A stretch of 36,039 nt of DNA from Oscillospiraceae bacterium (GTDB lineage Bacteria; Bacillota; Clostridia; Oscillospirales; CAG-272). This document shows, one piece after another, positions 3,769-29,991 of the stretch. A program made the translations under genes and the position numbers. The DNA lies in the NCBI GenBank assembly GCA_015063395.1, contig SVUF01000007.1, positions 1-36,039 on the forward strand, in the 5' to 3' direction. The notes under the pieces were generated by a model. That model was given only the letters and a program-made list of their open reading frames with translations. It did not search any database and had not been told where the DNA came from. How positions within the stretch are numbered: the first letter of the stretch is position 1; the number at the start of each line of letters is the position of its first letter.

Positions 3769-4824
3769 TTAAATATATGATCTTCTCTTTTTGCAAACGA
3801 TCATTATTCCCAAAATAAAGGATACTATCGCAAGAGGTACAAAGACAAGCTCTTCGCCGGTTTTGGGATTTTCAAGCTGTCTTTCATATTCGGCATAAAG
3901 CGCTTCAAAGCGCTGTCTTGGAGTTCTGCCAAGATCGTCATCATAGCCTTCCCAATCAAAGAAAATACCATCATAATATGGTGAATCATACTCAAAATAT
4001 GCTTTTATGTCAGCAAAGAACACCTTTAAACTAACAGTTGTTAAATCAAAATTTTGAAAATCCTCAACTGTATATTTATAACCAAAAAACAAATCCCAAG
4101 CATCTATGCAGTATCCAAGCTCTTTGACATAAGCGGACCCCGGCTTCACCAATAATGACGCAGCCTTTTCCTCGTCTTTCATACATGCAGCTTCAATTAC
4201 AAAATTTGGAGGTACTGACTCATTTTTAAGGTATTTTGCATATGCTTCAAATTCTGAATCAGTCAACTCTTTAAGGGTTTGTCTTGCGTATTCAGGCTCC
4301 TCGGACATTCTTCGATACGCTTCTCTGAGCTCATCCGCTGTAATTCCAAGCTTTTGAATTACAAAGCGGTACATACAATTATATCCCTCAAGATCATGGC
4401 ATTCATCATAATAATTTTCAAGTTCAATGCACAAATACTCCGGAGTACCATCTAACCGATTCCAAAACTTAGAAAAACCAGCTCCTTCCCACTGATCTGA
4501 ATAATCAGTATAATATTTATAAGTCAACTTTTTTCCTTGTTCTGTAAAAGGAAGAAATTCAAAGCCAAAGCCCCAAACATCTCCGCCTTCTCCTGCAAAA
4601 TCACCATAGAAGATAGTATCATAGCTTTGTTCGAAGCTTGTTGTGTATCTTAATCCATCTTCATCAAGAGGCTCTTCATACGCCAGCTTTTCTGCCCAAA
4701 GCTTATCAAAGCTATCGTCCGCATATGAAAGCATAGGAAATGCTGACGTAACAAAAGAAAAAATGAGCAAAATCACTGTGGCTATCTTAACAAATCCTGT
4801 GGTTTTCTTGTTGTACTTTCTCAT
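3769..4824 (-). CDS. Secreted protein with NPKTG sortase-type anchor signal
   Basis: 351 residues, function not recognised. The N-terminus has a basic start, a hydrophobic core (residues 12-30) and a likely signal peptidase site near SYA-DD. The mature part is rich in acidic and aromatic residues (many Tyr, Asp, Glu, Phe) and shows no catalytic motif I can name. The last 33 residues are NPKTG (319-323), a hydrophobic segment, and a KKRRSYI tail. That is the layout of a cell-wall sorting signal with NPxTG in place of LPxTG, a variant seen in clostridial surface proteins. It is therefore probably exported and covalently anchored by a sortase encoded elsewhere. A strong GGAGGC ribosome site lies at 4831-4836. 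It stands alone between a shared terminator and its own promoter. Confidence 0.8.
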   Translation of the reverse strand: MRKYNKKTTGFVKIATVILLIFSFVTSAFPMLSYADDSFDKLWAEKLAYEEPLDEDGLRYTTSFEQSYDTIFYGDFAGEGGDVWGFGFEFLPFTEQGKKLTYKYYTDYSDQWEGAGFSKFWNRLDGTPEYLCIELENYYDECHDLEGYNCMYRFVIQKLGITADELREAYRRMSEEPEYARQTLKELTDSEFEAYAKYLKNESVPPNFVIEAACMKDEEKAASLLVKPGSAYVKELGYCIDAWDLFFGYKYTVEDFQNFDLTTVSLKVFFADIKAYFEYDSPYYDGIFFDWEGYDDDLGRTPRQRFEALYAEYERQLENPKTGEELVFVPLAIVSFILGIMIVCKKRRSYI

Positions 4825-4852
4825 TATATCGCCTCCTTTTTATTCTATAAAT

Positions 4853-4881
4853 ATTGTATCATATAAATAGACTATTGTCAA
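4853..4881 (-). promoter_or_regulatory. Consensus promoter of the NPKTG surface protein gene
   Basis: Minus strand TTGACA (4881-4876), 17-base spacer, TACAAT (4858-4853), about 28 bases upstream of the start codon at 4824. Confidence 0.8.
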
Positions 4882-4926
4882 TAGGCTGTAAGAATTTCAC
4901 ACAAAAAAACCGATGTGTTTGATAAT

Positions 4927-6183
4927 TTATATGTGCAAAAATGACACGGTTATTTTAAATCTGTTTTCTTCCTTTAGCTCTGCGCAAATTTTTCCGTCAT
5001 TTGCCTCAGTTATGGCGCGAGCCAATGAAAGCCCGATTCCGTGACCGCCCGCGCTTGAATTTCTTGATTCATCGATCTTATAAAATCTTTCAAAAACATG
5101 CTCCAGCTTTTCCGGAGAAATATAATACGATGATGGATTTTCAACGGTTAAATGCACCCACTTGTTTTGCTGAACAAGAGTCACTTGGATCTCTGCCCCA
5201 AGAGGAGAATACTTGATTGAATTTTCAAGAAGTATGGACACAAGCTGACCTATGGAAATTTCATCCCCCAGCATATATAGCCCATCTTGTATTTCAGCAG
5301 TCAGGCTTTTTCCCTGTGACACTGCAAGAACGTTGAATGAATCAGTTAGCTCCTCAACGGTTTTGGAAAGCTCAAATTTTGCATTTTTTTCAAAGCTTTC
5401 CCTCTCCTCCATTTTTGAAAGATATACAAGCTGGTTTGTAAGATTTGTCAGTCTTGCGCTTTGCTTTTTTATATCCTCAAGGGATTCATTCTTTCCGATA
5501 TCCATTTCAAGAACATCCACATTCGCATTGATTATGGTAAGGGGCGTTTTGATCTCGTGACCTGCATCTGTTATAAACCTTTTTTGTTTTTCATAGCTTT
5601 CGCTTATAGGACGGATGATCCTTGTCGACAAAAAGAACAGAACTATTCCTACAATTACAAATGCAGAAAGAGCAATCATTGAGCTTGTAAAAAGGAAAGA
5701 TGCAACTGATTCAAGCTTACTTCCGCAATCAAGGAATACAATTCTTGTAAGCTTTCCTTCCTGACTTTTAAAATATCTGATCTTATTTATAAATCCCTTT
5801 TCTCTTTCAAGTGTGTTTATCTCCAAGGCGTATTCCTTGGCGCTTTCCTTGTCAACGGATGCAATTCTGCTGACATCACAGTAAATCACTTTACCGTTTT
5901 CATCAATAAGCACGGAAAAAAATCTTGATTCATATGGCAATTCCGGTGACATATAGTGTGGCAGACGCCCATCATTTTTGTCCCATTTCATCTCCGTTTC
6001 GGGAATCTTTTCAAAATTCGGAAAGGTACCCTTGTTCTCTGAAAGGAACTTCAGTATTTCATCGGCATCGGCAACGGTATTGGAATAATTTATTATGTTC
6101 ATTACCGCTATTATGAGAGTAAGAACTATCAATAGCGAGCCTGTTGAAAGGGTTATAAATTTGAATCTAAGCTTTTTGATCAT
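4927..6183 (-). CDS. Membrane sensor histidine kinase
   Basis: 418 residues when started at the ATG at 6183. That start has a GGAGGAG ribosome site and overlaps the stop of the response regulator gene (ATGA), so the longer frame back to 6285 is not used. The layout is TM1 (about 10-32), an extracytoplasmic sensor region of about 130 residues with no named domain, TM2 (about 163-186), then a HisKA dimerisation domain with the H-box at His209 (FITDAGHEIKTPLT). The HATPase domain follows, with an N-box (ENSIKYSPLGAEI) and a G-box (GGHGIGLSLARAI). It is predicted to autophosphorylate His209 and pass the phosphate to the neighbouring OmpR-type regulator. The stimulus is unknown, but the divergent gene for a beta-helix glycan-binding lipoprotein suggests a surface or polysaccharide signal. 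Confidence 0.9.
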   Translation of the reverse strand: MIKKLRFKFITLSTGSLLIVLTLIIAVMNIINYSNTVADADEILKFLSENKGTFPNFEKIPETEMKWDKNDGRLPHYMSPELPYESRFFSVLIDENGKVIYCDVSRIASVDKESAKEYALEINTLEREKGFINKIRYFKSQEGKLTRIVFLDCGSKLESVASFLFTSSMIALSAFVIVGIVLFFLSTRIIRPISESYEKQKRFITDAGHEIKTPLTIINANVDVLEMDIGKNESLEDIKKQSARLTNLTNQLVYLSKMEERESFEKNAKFELSKTVEELTDSFNVLAVSQGKSLTAEIQDGLYMLGDEISIGQLVSILLENSIKYSPLGAEIQVTLVQQNKWVHLTVENPSSYYISPEKLEHVFERFYKIDESRNSSAGGHGIGLSLARAITEANDGKICAELKEENRFKITVSFLHI

Positions 6184-26373: not shown

Positions 26374-26841
26374 TTAATCTGTTGAATATTCGTTCTTTGT
26401 GAGATCCTCAAGATTATTTACTATTGAGAAGAACACCTTATAAAATATCTGTCTTTCATCATCCGTGAAATCAGCAGAGCCCCTTTTCACAGCCTGTTCT
26501 ATTGCCCCCATGATCTTTCTGTTGAGCGCAAGTCCGTCATCAGAAAGCTTTATCATGGTTCTGTACTTTCTCTTTGTTGCCTGTATCGGCACTACAAGCC
26601 CCTTTTGAGTAAGATCAAGTATTGTTCTTGATACCGCCGCCTTATCTTCGTTACAAAGCTTACACAGCTCTGCCGCAGTCAGACCGCAGTCGTTCTTGCC
26701 TAAAAAATACATGCACATTACATGGTTACCCTTTAAGCCAAGATGCTCTGTCTCGATGTTTTTTATCTTTTGGATACATTTGTAAGCTCTTGTCACCGTA
26801 GTCACAAAGCTTTCAAATCTCTCGTTTAACTCTGTTACCAT
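26374..26841 (-). CDS. MarR-family transcriptional regulator
   Basis: 155 residues from the ATG at 26841; AAGGGAG lies eight bases upstream. A GTG nine bases earlier overlaps the ribosome site and is rejected. The winged-helix fold is seen in LTAAELCKLCNEDKAAVSRTILDLTQKGLV (the HTH) and RTMIKLSDDGLALNRKI (the wing). Flanking helices would form the dimer interface. MarR proteins bind 16-20 bp palindromes as dimers. In streptococci and lactococci the MarR protein FabT regulates fatty acid genes, and here the gene follows a fatty-acid-kinase-like pair, so a lipid-related role is a reasonable inference. Confidence 0.88.
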   Translation of the reverse strand: MVTELNERFESFVTTVTRAYKCIQKIKNIETEHLGLKGNHVMCMYFLGKNDCGLTAAELCKLCNEDKAAVSRTILDLTQKGLVVPIQATKRKYRTMIKLSDDGLALNRKIMGAIEQAVKRGSADFTDDERQIFYKVFFSIVNNLEDLTKNEYSTD

Positions 26842-26901
26842 ACTTATCACTCCCTTTCAAATTATTATGAATATAAGGAGCTGTCATTATGACCATGAAT
26901 A

Positions 26902-28575
26902 TTATTCAGCCGCAATGATGTAATCATATACGGGCTGACCTCCGCATACAAGGTCAATTTCCGCATCATCGTTTATTTTACCGCGCAAAAGCTCTACAGC
27001 AACCTCTGCGTCGCTGTCTTTGATATTTTCACCGTAGAACACAGTCAAATACGATGCCTCTGCAAATGCCTCGCCAATTGCCTTTATACAATCGTTGGCA
27101 TCGTCTGCGGAGCAAATGATCTTTCCGTCAACAATGGCAATAAGCTGACCGTCCTTGATCTGTACGCCCTCAATGGATGTATCTCTTACAGCATAGGTAA
27201 CCTGTGCTGTACGCACATTGCCGATTGCCTCATTCATTTCATTGGTATTTGTCTCAAGATCTCCGTCGGGATTGTATGCGATCATTGCCGCTATACCCTG
27301 GGGAACGCTCTTGGTGGGAAGAACGACAACATTCTTTTCTTCAACAAGCTTTGCCGCCTGTACAGCAACAAGATAAATATTCTTATTGTTGGGAAGAACA
27401 AACACATGCTTTGCAGGTGTTCTCTTTACAGCATTGATAATATCCTGTGTGCTGGGGTTCATTGTCTGTCCGCCAAACACGATCTTATCAACACCAAGAT
27501 CGATGAATGTATCTCTGATGCCCTCTCCCATACAAATGCTTACGATTCCAAATTCCTTTTCAGCAGGAGCAACTTCAACAACTGTTTCTTCCGCAGGTGT
27601 CAAAACAGGCTTTGCAGGAGCCGCACCTCCCTTTTCCATGCTTGCCATGGTGGAATGCTGAAGCTTCATATTCTCAACCTTCATGCTTTCAATTTCACCG
27701 TATTCAAGGGCTTTTTCAATGATCTGTCCCGGGTGGTTTGTGTGAACATGAACCTTGATTATATCCTCTGCATCAACGAAAACAACACTGTCTCCCATGG
27801 AGCATGCAAAATCGTTGAATTCTGCCGCAGTGCCTTCTCCGCGATACTTCTTCTTCTTTGCAACGATACATTCAGTACAGTAGGTAAACGTAATTGCACT
27901 TGCATCAAAATCAGAGAATGTTGCACCCTGTGTCTCTGTTACGGTTTCTTCATTAGCTTCAATAGGCTGCTGCTTAAGAGCCGCAAGCATACCTGTAATC
28001 AAAAGCATAAATCCAAATCCGCCCGCGTCAACAACCTGTGCCTCGCGAAGCACGGGAAGAAGCTCCGGAGTTCTTGCAAGAGTTTCCTCTCCTGTTTCCT
28101 TGATGTACGTGAAAAGACCTACGATATCGTCCTTGTACTTATCCTTTGCAGCCTCCTCAGCCTTTTCTGAGCATACTCTCATTACTGTGAGAATAGTACC
28201 CTCTGTAGGCTGCATTACTGCCTTGTAAGCCTCTGCGGTTCCGCGCTTCATTGCTCTTGCAACATCTGCAGGTGTTGCAGTCTCAAGACCCTTGAGCTCC
28301 TTTGCCATTCCTCTGAAGAAAAGAGAAAGAATTGCTCCTGAGTTACCTCTTGCAGAACGAAGCACCATGTCCGCAACCTTTTCTGCACAATCCGAAACTG
28401 TTCCGTCAAAATTGCTAAGTGCCCGAACCGTGCTCATTGTAAGAGTCATATTTATACCTGTATCTCCGTCAGGTACGGGGAAAACGTTCATATTGTTTAC
28501 ATCAACCTTATTGTTATCAAGAGAGTTTGTGGCTGATATAAGCATATTTCTCAGTGTCTGTCCATTAATTTCCAT
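26902..28575 (-). CDS. DAK2/DegV-linked kinase, FakA-like fatty acid kinase
   Basis: 557 residues from the ATG at 28575, which has GAGAGG upstream; the longer frame to 28611 would overlap degV. The N-terminal domain is DhaL-like, with the Mg/ATP-binding aspartates in VPDGDTGINM (34-43) and GNSGAILSLFFRG. The FakA middle region includes CTECIVAKKKKYRGEG, and VHVHTNHPG is present. The C-terminal domain holds NPSTQDIINAV and VVLPTKSVPQGIAAM, typical of YloV/FakA. Staphylococcal FakA phosphorylates fatty acids carried by FakB (DegV proteins) for phospholipid synthesis. The degV gene lies four bases upstream, which supports that role. Confidence 0.88.
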   Translation of the reverse strand: MEINGQTLRNMLISATNSLDNNKVDVNNMNVFPVPDGDTGINMTLTMSTVRALSNFDGTVSDCAEKVADMVLRSARGNSGAILSLFFRGMAKELKGLETATPADVARAMKRGTAEAYKAVMQPTEGTILTVMRVCSEKAEEAAKDKYKDDIVGLFTYIKETGEETLARTPELLPVLREAQVVDAGGFGFMLLITGMLAALKQQPIEANEETVTETQGATFSDFDASAITFTYCTECIVAKKKKYRGEGTAAEFNDFACSMGDSVVFVDAEDIIKVHVHTNHPGQIIEKALEYGEIESMKVENMKLQHSTMASMEKGGAAPAKPVLTPAEETVVEVAPAEKEFGIVSICMGEGIRDTFIDLGVDKIVFGGQTMNPSTQDIINAVKRTPAKHVFVLPNNKNIYLVAVQAAKLVEEKNVVVLPTKSVPQGIAAMIAYNPDGDLETNTNEMNEAIGNVRTAQVTYAVRDTSIEGVQIKDGQLIAIVDGKIICSADDANDCIKAIGEAFAEASYLTVFYGENIKDSDAEVAVELLRGKINDDAEIDLVCGGQPVYDYIIAAE

Positions 28576-28579
28576 GTTA

Positions 28580-29449
28580 TTACCTCTCTGTTCCAAGATA
28601 GAATAATGCAAGTGTTCCGGGGCCGCTATGTGATCCGATTACAGGTCCTACGTAAGAAATTTCCACATGATCAATACCAATCTCTGTTCTGATCTTATTT
28701 GCAAGATACTCTGCATCCTCAATGCAATCGCCATGGCTGATGAATACAACAGAGTTCTTTTCGGGGATCATTGTTGCCTTCATCTTGTCAAACATAGCAT
28801 TGATGGAAGCCTTTCTTCCCTTTGCCTTTGATACGTTAATAAGCTTTCCTGCATTGTCAACATGAAGAACGGGCTTGATCGAAAGCATCGTTCCAAGAAC
28901 CGCTGTTGCAGCGCTTACTCGTCCGCCGCGCTTCAGGAAGAAAAGATCGTCAACTGTAAACCAATGGCAAAGATTGAGCTTGTTGTTTTCTACGTAATCA
29001 CGTACTTCCTCAATTGTTGCTCCGCTTTCCTTTACCTTGCATGCAAGGTAAACAAGGAGACCCTGTCCCATTGAAGCACAAAGAGTGTCCACTGCATAAA
29101 GCTTTCTGTCGGGGTATTTTTCCTGAAGATCCGAAAGCGCGATCTTTCCCGATGAATATGTACTGCTGAGTCCCGAGGAGAATCCGAGATAAAGAATGTC
29201 ATTTTCTCCTTCGCTGAGAATATTATCAAAAATATCTGTAAATCTTCCAATGCTTACAGCAGATGTGGAAATCGTCTTTTTGTCGCGAAGCTTTCTGTAC
29301 ACTTCCTTAAAATCCACCTCGTTGTTGGCAACGGAGCCCCCCTCACCCTCGATGACGATGTCAAGCTGTGCAACCTTGATTCCAAGCGAATCAACCATTT
29401 CTTGAGTCATATCGATGCATGAGTCGGTTACAATCACAAAATTTCTCAT
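28580..29449 (-). CDS. DegV-family fatty-acid-binding protein (FakB-like)
   Basis: 289 residues, full length. VIVTDSCIDM near residue 10, the STSAVSIGRF block (about 60), FSSGLSSTYS (about 95), and the C-terminal SHSGPGTLALFY are the family landmarks; the Thr/Ser and His contact the fatty-acid carboxylate. FakB proteins present a bound acyl chain to FakA for phosphorylation. The product acyl phosphate feeds PlsX/PlsY. The gene is directly ahead of the fakA-like gene in one unit. The ribosome site before ATG 29449 is weak (GTGAG), and the leader contains hairpins that could limit translation. Confidence 0.9.
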   Translation of the reverse strand: MRNFVIVTDSCIDMTQEMVDSLGIKVAQLDIVIEGEGGSVANNEVDFKEVYRKLRDKKTISTSAVSIGRFTDIFDNILSEGENDILYLGFSSGLSSTYSSGKIALSDLQEKYPDRKLYAVDTLCASMGQGLLVYLACKVKESGATIEEVRDYVENNKLNLCHWFTVDDLFFLKRGGRVSAATAVLGTMLSIKPVLHVDNAGKLINVSKAKGRKASINAMFDKMKATMIPEKNSVVFISHGDCIEDAEYLANKIRTEIGIDHVEISYVGPVIGSHSGPGTLALFYLGTER

Positions 29450-29461
29450 ATTTTCTCACTT

Positions 29462-29485
29462 GATGCTCTCCTGCACGGAGGCATC
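29462..29485 (-). promoter_or_regulatory. Leader hairpin before degV
   Basis: GATGC-CTCC and GGAG-A-GCATC pair to form a nine-pair stem around GTGCA on the minus strand, 13 bases upstream of the start codon. The CTCC arm can instead pair with the GGGAGG just upstream, so two structures compete. The AGGAG in the 3' arm is a possible ribosome site that would be hidden. Confidence 0.35.
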
Positions 29486-29600
29486 CTCCCTTTCTTATTT
29501 TTAAAAATTGATAAAATACTAATTTTGCATTGACCTGAAATTAAAAAGTCTGTAGTCTTTAATTTTTTAGGCGTTAATATAAATTGTTAAAAAATATAAA

Positions 29601-29616
29601 TGTTGACACCTCAACA
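29601..29616. promoter_or_regulatory. 16-bp palindromic operator candidate at the degV promoter
   Basis: TGTTGA-CACC-TCAACA is a perfect inverted repeat placed just downstream of the -10 box (29622-29627), at the expected transcription start. An outer pair AAATTGTT (29581-29588) and AACAATTT (29613-29620) adds a second overlapping inverted repeat. The geometry suits a MarR-type dimer. Confidence 0.5.
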
Positions 29617-29621
29617 ATTTC

Positions 29622-29650
29622 ATTTTAGCATATTTCCAAATAATTGTCAA
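29622..29650 (-). promoter_or_regulatory. Promoter of the degV-fakA-like-marR unit
   Basis: Minus strand TTGACA (29650-29645), 17-base spacer, TAAAAT (29627-29622). The leader to the degV start is about 165 bases. The remainder of the 457-base gap up to the tRNA gene (29651-29840) is AT-rich and shows nothing else I can name. Confidence 0.8.
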
Positions 29651-29906: not shown

Positions 29907-29991
29907 GCGCCTGTGGTGGAATTGGCAGACACGTTGGATTTAGGTTCCAATTTCGAGAGGAGTGCAGGTTCAAGTCCTGTCAGGCGCACCA
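29907..29991 (+). tRNA. tRNA-Leu (anticodon UAG)
   Basis: 85 bases with CCA encoded. The acceptor stem GCGCCTG (29907-29913) pairs with CAGGCGC (29981-29987). The D-arm GGAATTGGCAGAC is typical of tRNA-Leu. The anticodon stem TTGGA/TCCAA holds the loop TTTAGGT, giving anticodon TAG. A long class II variable arm follows, then the T-arm GCAGG-TTCAAGT-CCTGT. It reads CUN leucine codons. It stands alone with its own promoter and terminator. Confidence 0.97.

Follow-up and report, generated by a model that had tools for sequence, protein, structure and literature searches.

FabT, the synthesis repressor of Lactobacillales, is a MarR protein encoded in a lipid operon, with a palindromic operator in its promoter and a link to exogenous fatty acids (available sections of PMC9083066 and PMC13046290), and the locus described here, with its putative operator, resembles it in these respects. 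In E. faecalis, the best-studied Gram-positive system, exogenous fatty acids are reported to be activated constitutively, with only synthesis being switched (PMC13046290, in the sections available), and the accessible part of PMC12594616 gives its fak genes as not being under FabT. Pneumococcal fakB3 is reported to respond to FabT indirectly, without direct binding (PMC7773995, in part).

The window, that is, the whole stretch of 36,039 nucleotides analyzed from an Oscillospiraceae contig, carries a degV-fakA-marR operon with a palindrome at its promoter (Table 1). We propose, with a probability of about 0.75, that this palindrome is the operator of the operon's own MarR, which would act as an autorepressor of fakB-fakA-marR and probably also control an aldehyde dehydrogenase (ALDH) gene, likely together with yhhN, the whole forming an acyl-scavenging regulon. 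The proposed regulon is wider than the first-pass annotation stated, with aldehyde dehydrogenase and YhhN added. A literature search, with subscription papers mostly outside it, found no description of this MarR-fak operator.

Table 1. Features of the degV-fakA-marR locus (window positions) and of the ALDH and yhhN genes elsewhere in the same genome (contig or locus positions)
Feature	Position	Strand	Remarks
MarR-family regulator, proposed repressor	26374-26850	-	PF12802, PF13463; model pLDDT 90.6
FakA/YloV-like fatty acid kinase	26902-28575	-	PF02734, PF13684, PF21645; 7w7h_A, E 9e-103
degV, DegV/FakB-like fatty acid binding protein	28580-29449	-	PF02645, 238.7 bits; solved FakB1 chains, E ~1e-34
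Outer repeat AAATTGTT (29581-29588) / AACAATTT (29613-29620)	29581-29620	.	Present, not significant, excluded from the operator
Operator palindrome TGTTGA-N4-TCAACA	29601-29616	.	Exact match; kept with marR in relatives
Predicted promoter TTGACA-17-TAAAAT	29622-29650	-	11/12 matches; TG ahead of second hexamer
ALDH, contig-end part	L147:3-929 (C52)		Runs off contig
ALDH end, as read	L259:1-176 (C77)		yhhN next
yhhN	C77:321-845		YhhN domain, 93.1 bits against 25.6

The operon and its leader in the window

The first-pass annotation had placed a perfect TGTTGA-N4-TCAACA palindrome at a transcription start; the palindrome is confirmed, and the promoter prediction agrees with the start. The palindrome reads TGTTGACACCTCAACA (TGTTGA-CACC-TCAACA), and the predicted start, at about 29615, falls within it, approximately 165 nt ahead of the degV ATG at 29449. 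The predicted promoter consists of the minus-strand hexamers TTGACA (29650-29645) and TAAAAT (29627-29622), and the operator starts 6 bp past it. Only one site was found in the window leader (L002, L046) at up to two mismatches. When 411-bp stretches of window composition were simulated, 46% contained at least one perfect 6-N4-6 palindrome; significance from the window alone was therefore rejected, and the lone palindrome is no proof by itself. Its exact sequence carries the case, because that sequence is conserved together with marR.

An outer inverted repeat had also been noted around the palindrome. The repeat is present. In simulations, however, 7.7% of flanks gained an additional inverted repeat of 8 bp, and 12% of random 66-mers with similar composition had one of 8 bp and equal span; the outer repeat is thus not significant and was dropped as a second operator. 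The degV leader also contains a short GC-rich hairpin, GGAGGCATCCTCC (29477-29489), which is terminator-like on the plus strand and on the mRNA strand stands shortly ahead of the degV start. A tRNA-Leu gene (29907-29991, plus strand) separates the degV operon from the next gene block.

Comparison supported the earlier description of the unit as a fatty-acid-kinase-like operon whose third gene is a MarR regulator. The kinase has the FakA architecture of Dak2, middle and C-terminal domains, with a DegV partner, and aligns to the solved chain 7w7h_A along its length and also to solved FakA domains. Both DegV and the kinase score under NCBI's narrow FakB1 and FakA equivalog cut-offs, so that FakB-like and FakA-like are fair names. 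The pair is probably a FakAB-type fatty acid kinase and a candidate for phosphorylating bound fatty acid. The regulator exceeded the cut-offs of both Pfam models, MarR_2 and HTH_27 (PF12802, 30.6 bits against 27; PF13463, 28 against 22.2), the structures matching its model have the MarR fold, and it is the single MarR of this kind found in its own genome. Its best NCBIfam model is BilQ, where it scores 25 bits and the cut-off is 125. The same run continues 3' of marR with an ORF without a family match, yicC, a remA-like gene, gmk, a 90-codon ORF, priA and def.

Conservation and layout of the site

Homologues of marR were gathered by protein alone in two sets. Set A comprises 71 loci of the window's bacterial family; set B covers named species, with the best 80 loci among 353 relatives. 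Allowing up to one mismatch, the region from -250 to +10 of marR contained a site in 42 of the 71 set A loci and 59 of the 80 set B loci (best 80 of 353), and a perfect site in 22 and 49 of them, respectively. Where marR was not the first gene, the site stood ahead of the first gene in 14 further loci: 11 of the 29 set A loci lacking a marR-proximal site (fadD-marR, degV-fakA-marR and fakA-marR) and 3 of 21 such loci among the best 80 of set B (yhhN-marR). It lay downstream of marR in L208 and L248. Cultivable relatives with the regulator and its site include Clostridium cuniculi (L180), which has yhhN-marR and two sites, and Lachnospiraceae bacterium GAM79 (L240), which has marR-degV. Altogether, 1.12 Mb from both sets contained 105 perfect sites (41 + 64), compared with 0 for each of ten control patterns (seven altered spacers, three altered arms) in the same 1.12 Mb. 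Independent counts are somewhat lower because 15 near-duplicate locus pairs (at least 85% over 1 kb) occur, one of them across the two sets. The loose pattern TTGWNNNNWCAA was uninformative.

No site was found in 18 of the 71 set A loci or in 16 of the 80 in set B (best 80 of 353), which was counted against the proposal. Among these loci are eight Lachnospiraceae fadD-marR pairs (L204, L224, L225, L232, L233, L236, L238 and L258); the MarR of these pairs is still kin to the window MarR.

Presence of the palindrome upstream of degV in relatives had been named as a check on the operator. Where marR is followed by degV, that check did not refute it: 13 of 17 such loci in set A and 30 of 33 in set B (best 80 of 353) had a site no more than 250 bp ahead of marR. 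Judged via degV itself, conservation was weak: among 30 loci picked by DegV similarity, only 6 had a site in the fetched flank, and the 15 with 54-62% identity (L047-L061) had none within 1.5 kb. That the closest DegV homologues mostly lack a nearby site was also counted against the proposal. The wider stretches around three of these loci (L136, L135 and L098 for L048, L050 and L060) have marR with the site further upstream. Site conservation thus tracks marR, not degV. In two degV loci (L062, L070) the retrieved flank contained a site but no marR, a hint that the regulator may act in trans.

The alignment of 143 sites from 112 loci, chosen at up to one mismatch over the 12 core positions, gave AAA-n-W-TGTTGA-CAAA-TCAACA-W-n-TTT. 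Since the core was used for selection, only the spacer and flanks hold independent information, and the spacer's bias toward CA is consistent with a -35 hexamer, TTGACA, lying inside the operator. Such a -35, with a -10 (at least 5/6 matches, 16-18 bp) facing the gene, was found at 70 of the 143 sites and facing away at 12. At another 28 the operator lay 4-12 bp past a -10, with 5 facing away, while 45 of the 143 sites fell in neither layout by the strict rule and were counted against the proposal. Both layouts occurred together in 14 of 112 loci, and neighboring sites were mostly spaced 21-22 or 36-43 bp apart. The window operator has the second layout only, just past the -10. A MarR dimer would occlude RNA polymerase at either layout.

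Acyl supply and the candidate regulon

The own genome (assembly 91% complete) had no match to PF00109 (KAS) or to PF08541 (FabH C-terminal domain), and thus no FabF or FabH gene was detected; in 14 positive-control genomes the same searches gave matches in 14 and 11, respectively. At 91% completeness fab genes may be missed, so their loss is not proven. Given that no KAS gene was detected and that PlsX is present, scavenging may be the only acyl source in this genome. If the absence of KAS is real, switching off synthesis, which is FabT's job, cannot be the role of the MarR here. Across the family, 100 of 146 sampled genomes, and 68 of 103 of good quality, had no PF00109 match. FabF (43 genomes, after three partial matches were dropped from 46) was present in 8 of 53 genomes with strong MarR homologues versus 35 of the other 93 (p = 0.0045, a value that ignores kinship and was not leaned on); over all 79 marR genomes the association, again with kinship ignored, had p = 0.28.

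The genome search for TGTTGA-N4-TCAACA near lipid genes, suggested in the first-pass annotation, yielded one such place outside the window. The perfect pattern occurs at three places: in the window, inside a 280-codon ORF, and at C52:1217-1232, the sole other perfect site outside a long ORF. The C52 site is accompanied by one-mismatch copies at 1253 and 1324, and all three lie between the ALDH gene and an M42 peptidase gene. In a promoter directed at ALDH (TTGACA-17-TATAAT, 12/12), the -35 falls within the 1253 site and the -10 is followed by the 1217 site, a two-site layout also seen in relatives. Nearer the ALDH start stand two further promoter-like matches, neither with an operator, which were counted against the proposal; another serves the peptidase. 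A long hairpin (L147:1050-1100) lies between the operator-bearing promoter and ALDH, with further promoter-like matches beyond, and an Rfam search of the C52 leader gave no match. A 64-codon ORF overlapping the 1217 and 1253 sites was taken as spurious.

An ALDH-yhhN operon has likely been split by the assembly, because the ALDH gene leaves contig C52 and contig C77 opens with an apparent ALDH end followed by yhhN. Lysoplasmalogenase activity is known for the M. tuberculosis member of the YhhN family (PMC9052158, in the part available), by analogy with which the protein here is a putative lysoplasmalogenase.

At up to one mismatch, 16 of 18 places in the genome were examined (C76 and C110:1465 were left out). 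Of these, 12 fall within ORFs, two are the copies on C52 and two are intergenic. The intergenic copies, the first of which follows an OMP decarboxylase/phosphoribosyltransferase pair (L012) while the second precedes a TPR protein (L151), look unrelated and were rejected as targets. At up to two mismatches, 221 places were found versus 80 for the reversed control, which is too noisy to name targets. The genome's own acyl-CoA ligase gene (L149) had no upstream site at up to one mismatch.

Recurrent neighbors of marR in relatives, counted from six-frame protein matches, were DegV, FakA, an AMP-binding acyl-CoA ligase (FadD type), an iron alcohol dehydrogenase, an aldehyde dehydrogenase, YhhN of the lysoplasmalogenase family, an OYE/BaiCD-like flavoenzyme and AcnX. 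At least one of them lay near marR on the same strand in 61 of 71 loci in set A and 64 of 80 in set B (best 80 of 353); set B is an independent test, since the labels were derived from set A. In the tree, the window MarR clusters with Ca. Avimonas and Clostridium (5 rows, support 100/91), and in 3 rows of its group yhhN and/or ALDH adjoins marR. By predicted function, then, the regulator's closest kin adjoin aldehyde and YhhN genes and here it adjoins fak, and the ALDH gene of its own genome keeps putative operators. In L101, L079, L107 and L111 the same MarR and operators stand ahead of OYE/BaiCD-BilR-like flavoenzyme and AcnX genes, which are not obviously acyl genes and were counted against the proposal. 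One site-bearing operon, in L115, encodes a choloylglycine-hydrolase/acyltransferase-type protein (4483-5718) between its marR and alcohol dehydrogenase genes.

On the evidence of these sequences, we infer that a MarR dimer seated over the start site would block transcription of fakB-fakA-marR. The same MarR would probably also control the ALDH gene from the promoter region with three sites, and yhhN most likely belongs to that operon. The enzymes may form a route from lysoplasmalogen through fatty aldehyde, fatty acid and acyl-phosphate to phospholipid synthesis; as no KAS genes were detected, it may be the cell's sole source of acyl chains. The ligand could be a long-chain fatty acid, a fatty aldehyde or an acyl thioester. 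Because the recurrent members are substrate-consuming enzymes, we lean slightly toward a ligand that would release the repressor over FabT-like co-repression. If true, a MarR that switches the kinase itself would explain intake control in gut bacteria dependent on scavenged lipids, and the operator code would offer a route to finding and testing lipid genes of many uncultured species. More tentatively, and at somewhat under even odds, gut Clostridia may have a dedicated, transcriptionally switched regulon for acyl scavenging in which one MarR subfamily reads TTGTTGACAAATCAACAA-type promoter operators, senses long-chain acyl or aldehyde compounds and controls lysoplasmalogenase, fatty aldehyde dehydrogenase, acyl-CoA ligase and fatty acid kinase; it would govern the sole acyl supply where synthesis has been lost, with an operator code common to the fab-operon MarR of relatives that keep synthesis.

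Other readings of the site and comparison with known systems

It is possible, though rather unlikely in our judgment, that the MarR exerts negative feedback as FabT does, the kind of control suggested in the first-pass annotation, binding tightly only with acyl-ACP or acyl-CoA and shutting down the activation of fatty acids once acyl chains abound. Acyl-ACP is reported to strengthen FabT binding (available sections of PMC9083066 and PMC13046290), and the accessible part of PMC12594616 cites S. pyogenes fakB4 as being under FabT control. The 22 fab-region loci of relatives with KAS also contained five MarR homologues, four of which stand behind TATTGA- or TGTTGA-type N4 palindromes (L165-L168) and branch inside the MarR tree. 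The targets here, however, consume fatty acids and aldehydes and do not make them, and FabT control of a fakB is called perverse in the same part of PMC12594616, as fatty acids would block their own use.

A generic sensor of hydrophobic or xenobiotic compounds, with varied amphipathic ligands and incidental lipid neighbors, would suit the best NCBIfam match, the bilirubin regulator BilQ (far under its cut-off), the OYE/BaiCD-BilR-like and AcnX neighbors at some loci and the MatE transporter that adjoins marR in L229; we consider it improbable, given that acyl-activating or aldehyde-oxidizing genes predominate around marR in both sets. The site could also be owned by another regulator, for example a Rex-like redox repressor: its half-site presumably resembles Rex operators, and alcohol and aldehyde dehydrogenases are usually under redox control. 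Yet the loci were chosen by MarR protein alone and the site tracks the marR-holding operon, which makes such ownership very unlikely. A functionless chance palindrome is barely credible: the shape is common enough in stretches of this length, but the exact motif recurs at the operons of marR homologues where every control pattern failed, and the window site sits in one of two recurrent promoter layouts. The reading that we prefer is an operator for the operon's own MarR.

Lipid gene control in a Gram-positive is also the business of FapR, the Bacillus lipid repressor, which uses another operator. FapR belongs to a separate protein family (PMC9083066, in part). The regulator of pneumococcal membrane composition, FasR (SPV_0647), has a gene that adjoins a fakB (fakB3), and its deletion lowers fakB3 expression; FasR differs in being TetR-like, not MarR, and direct control of fakB3 is merely suggested (PMC12647141, in the sections available). 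BilQ, the NCBIfam MarR of bilirubin utilization, is alike in being the best NCBIfam model and in the OYE-type neighbors of some relatives, and differs in its low score here and in the window operon being fak. FabT governs fab genes, whereas this regulator lies in degV-fakA-marR, outside any fab cluster, in a genome where no KAS gene was detected; the solved FabT (6jbx) ranks low among 111 PDB profile matches (E 2e-7) and is absent from the 10 PDB matches of the single MarR sequence. For these reasons, membership in FabT is not claimed. The layout is alike, and the comparison bears out the earlier suggestion of control analogous to, yet distinct from, that of FabT. Because four of the fab-region MarR homologues have like palindromes and fall within the tree, the regulators of synthesis and those of scavenging seem to use a common operator code.
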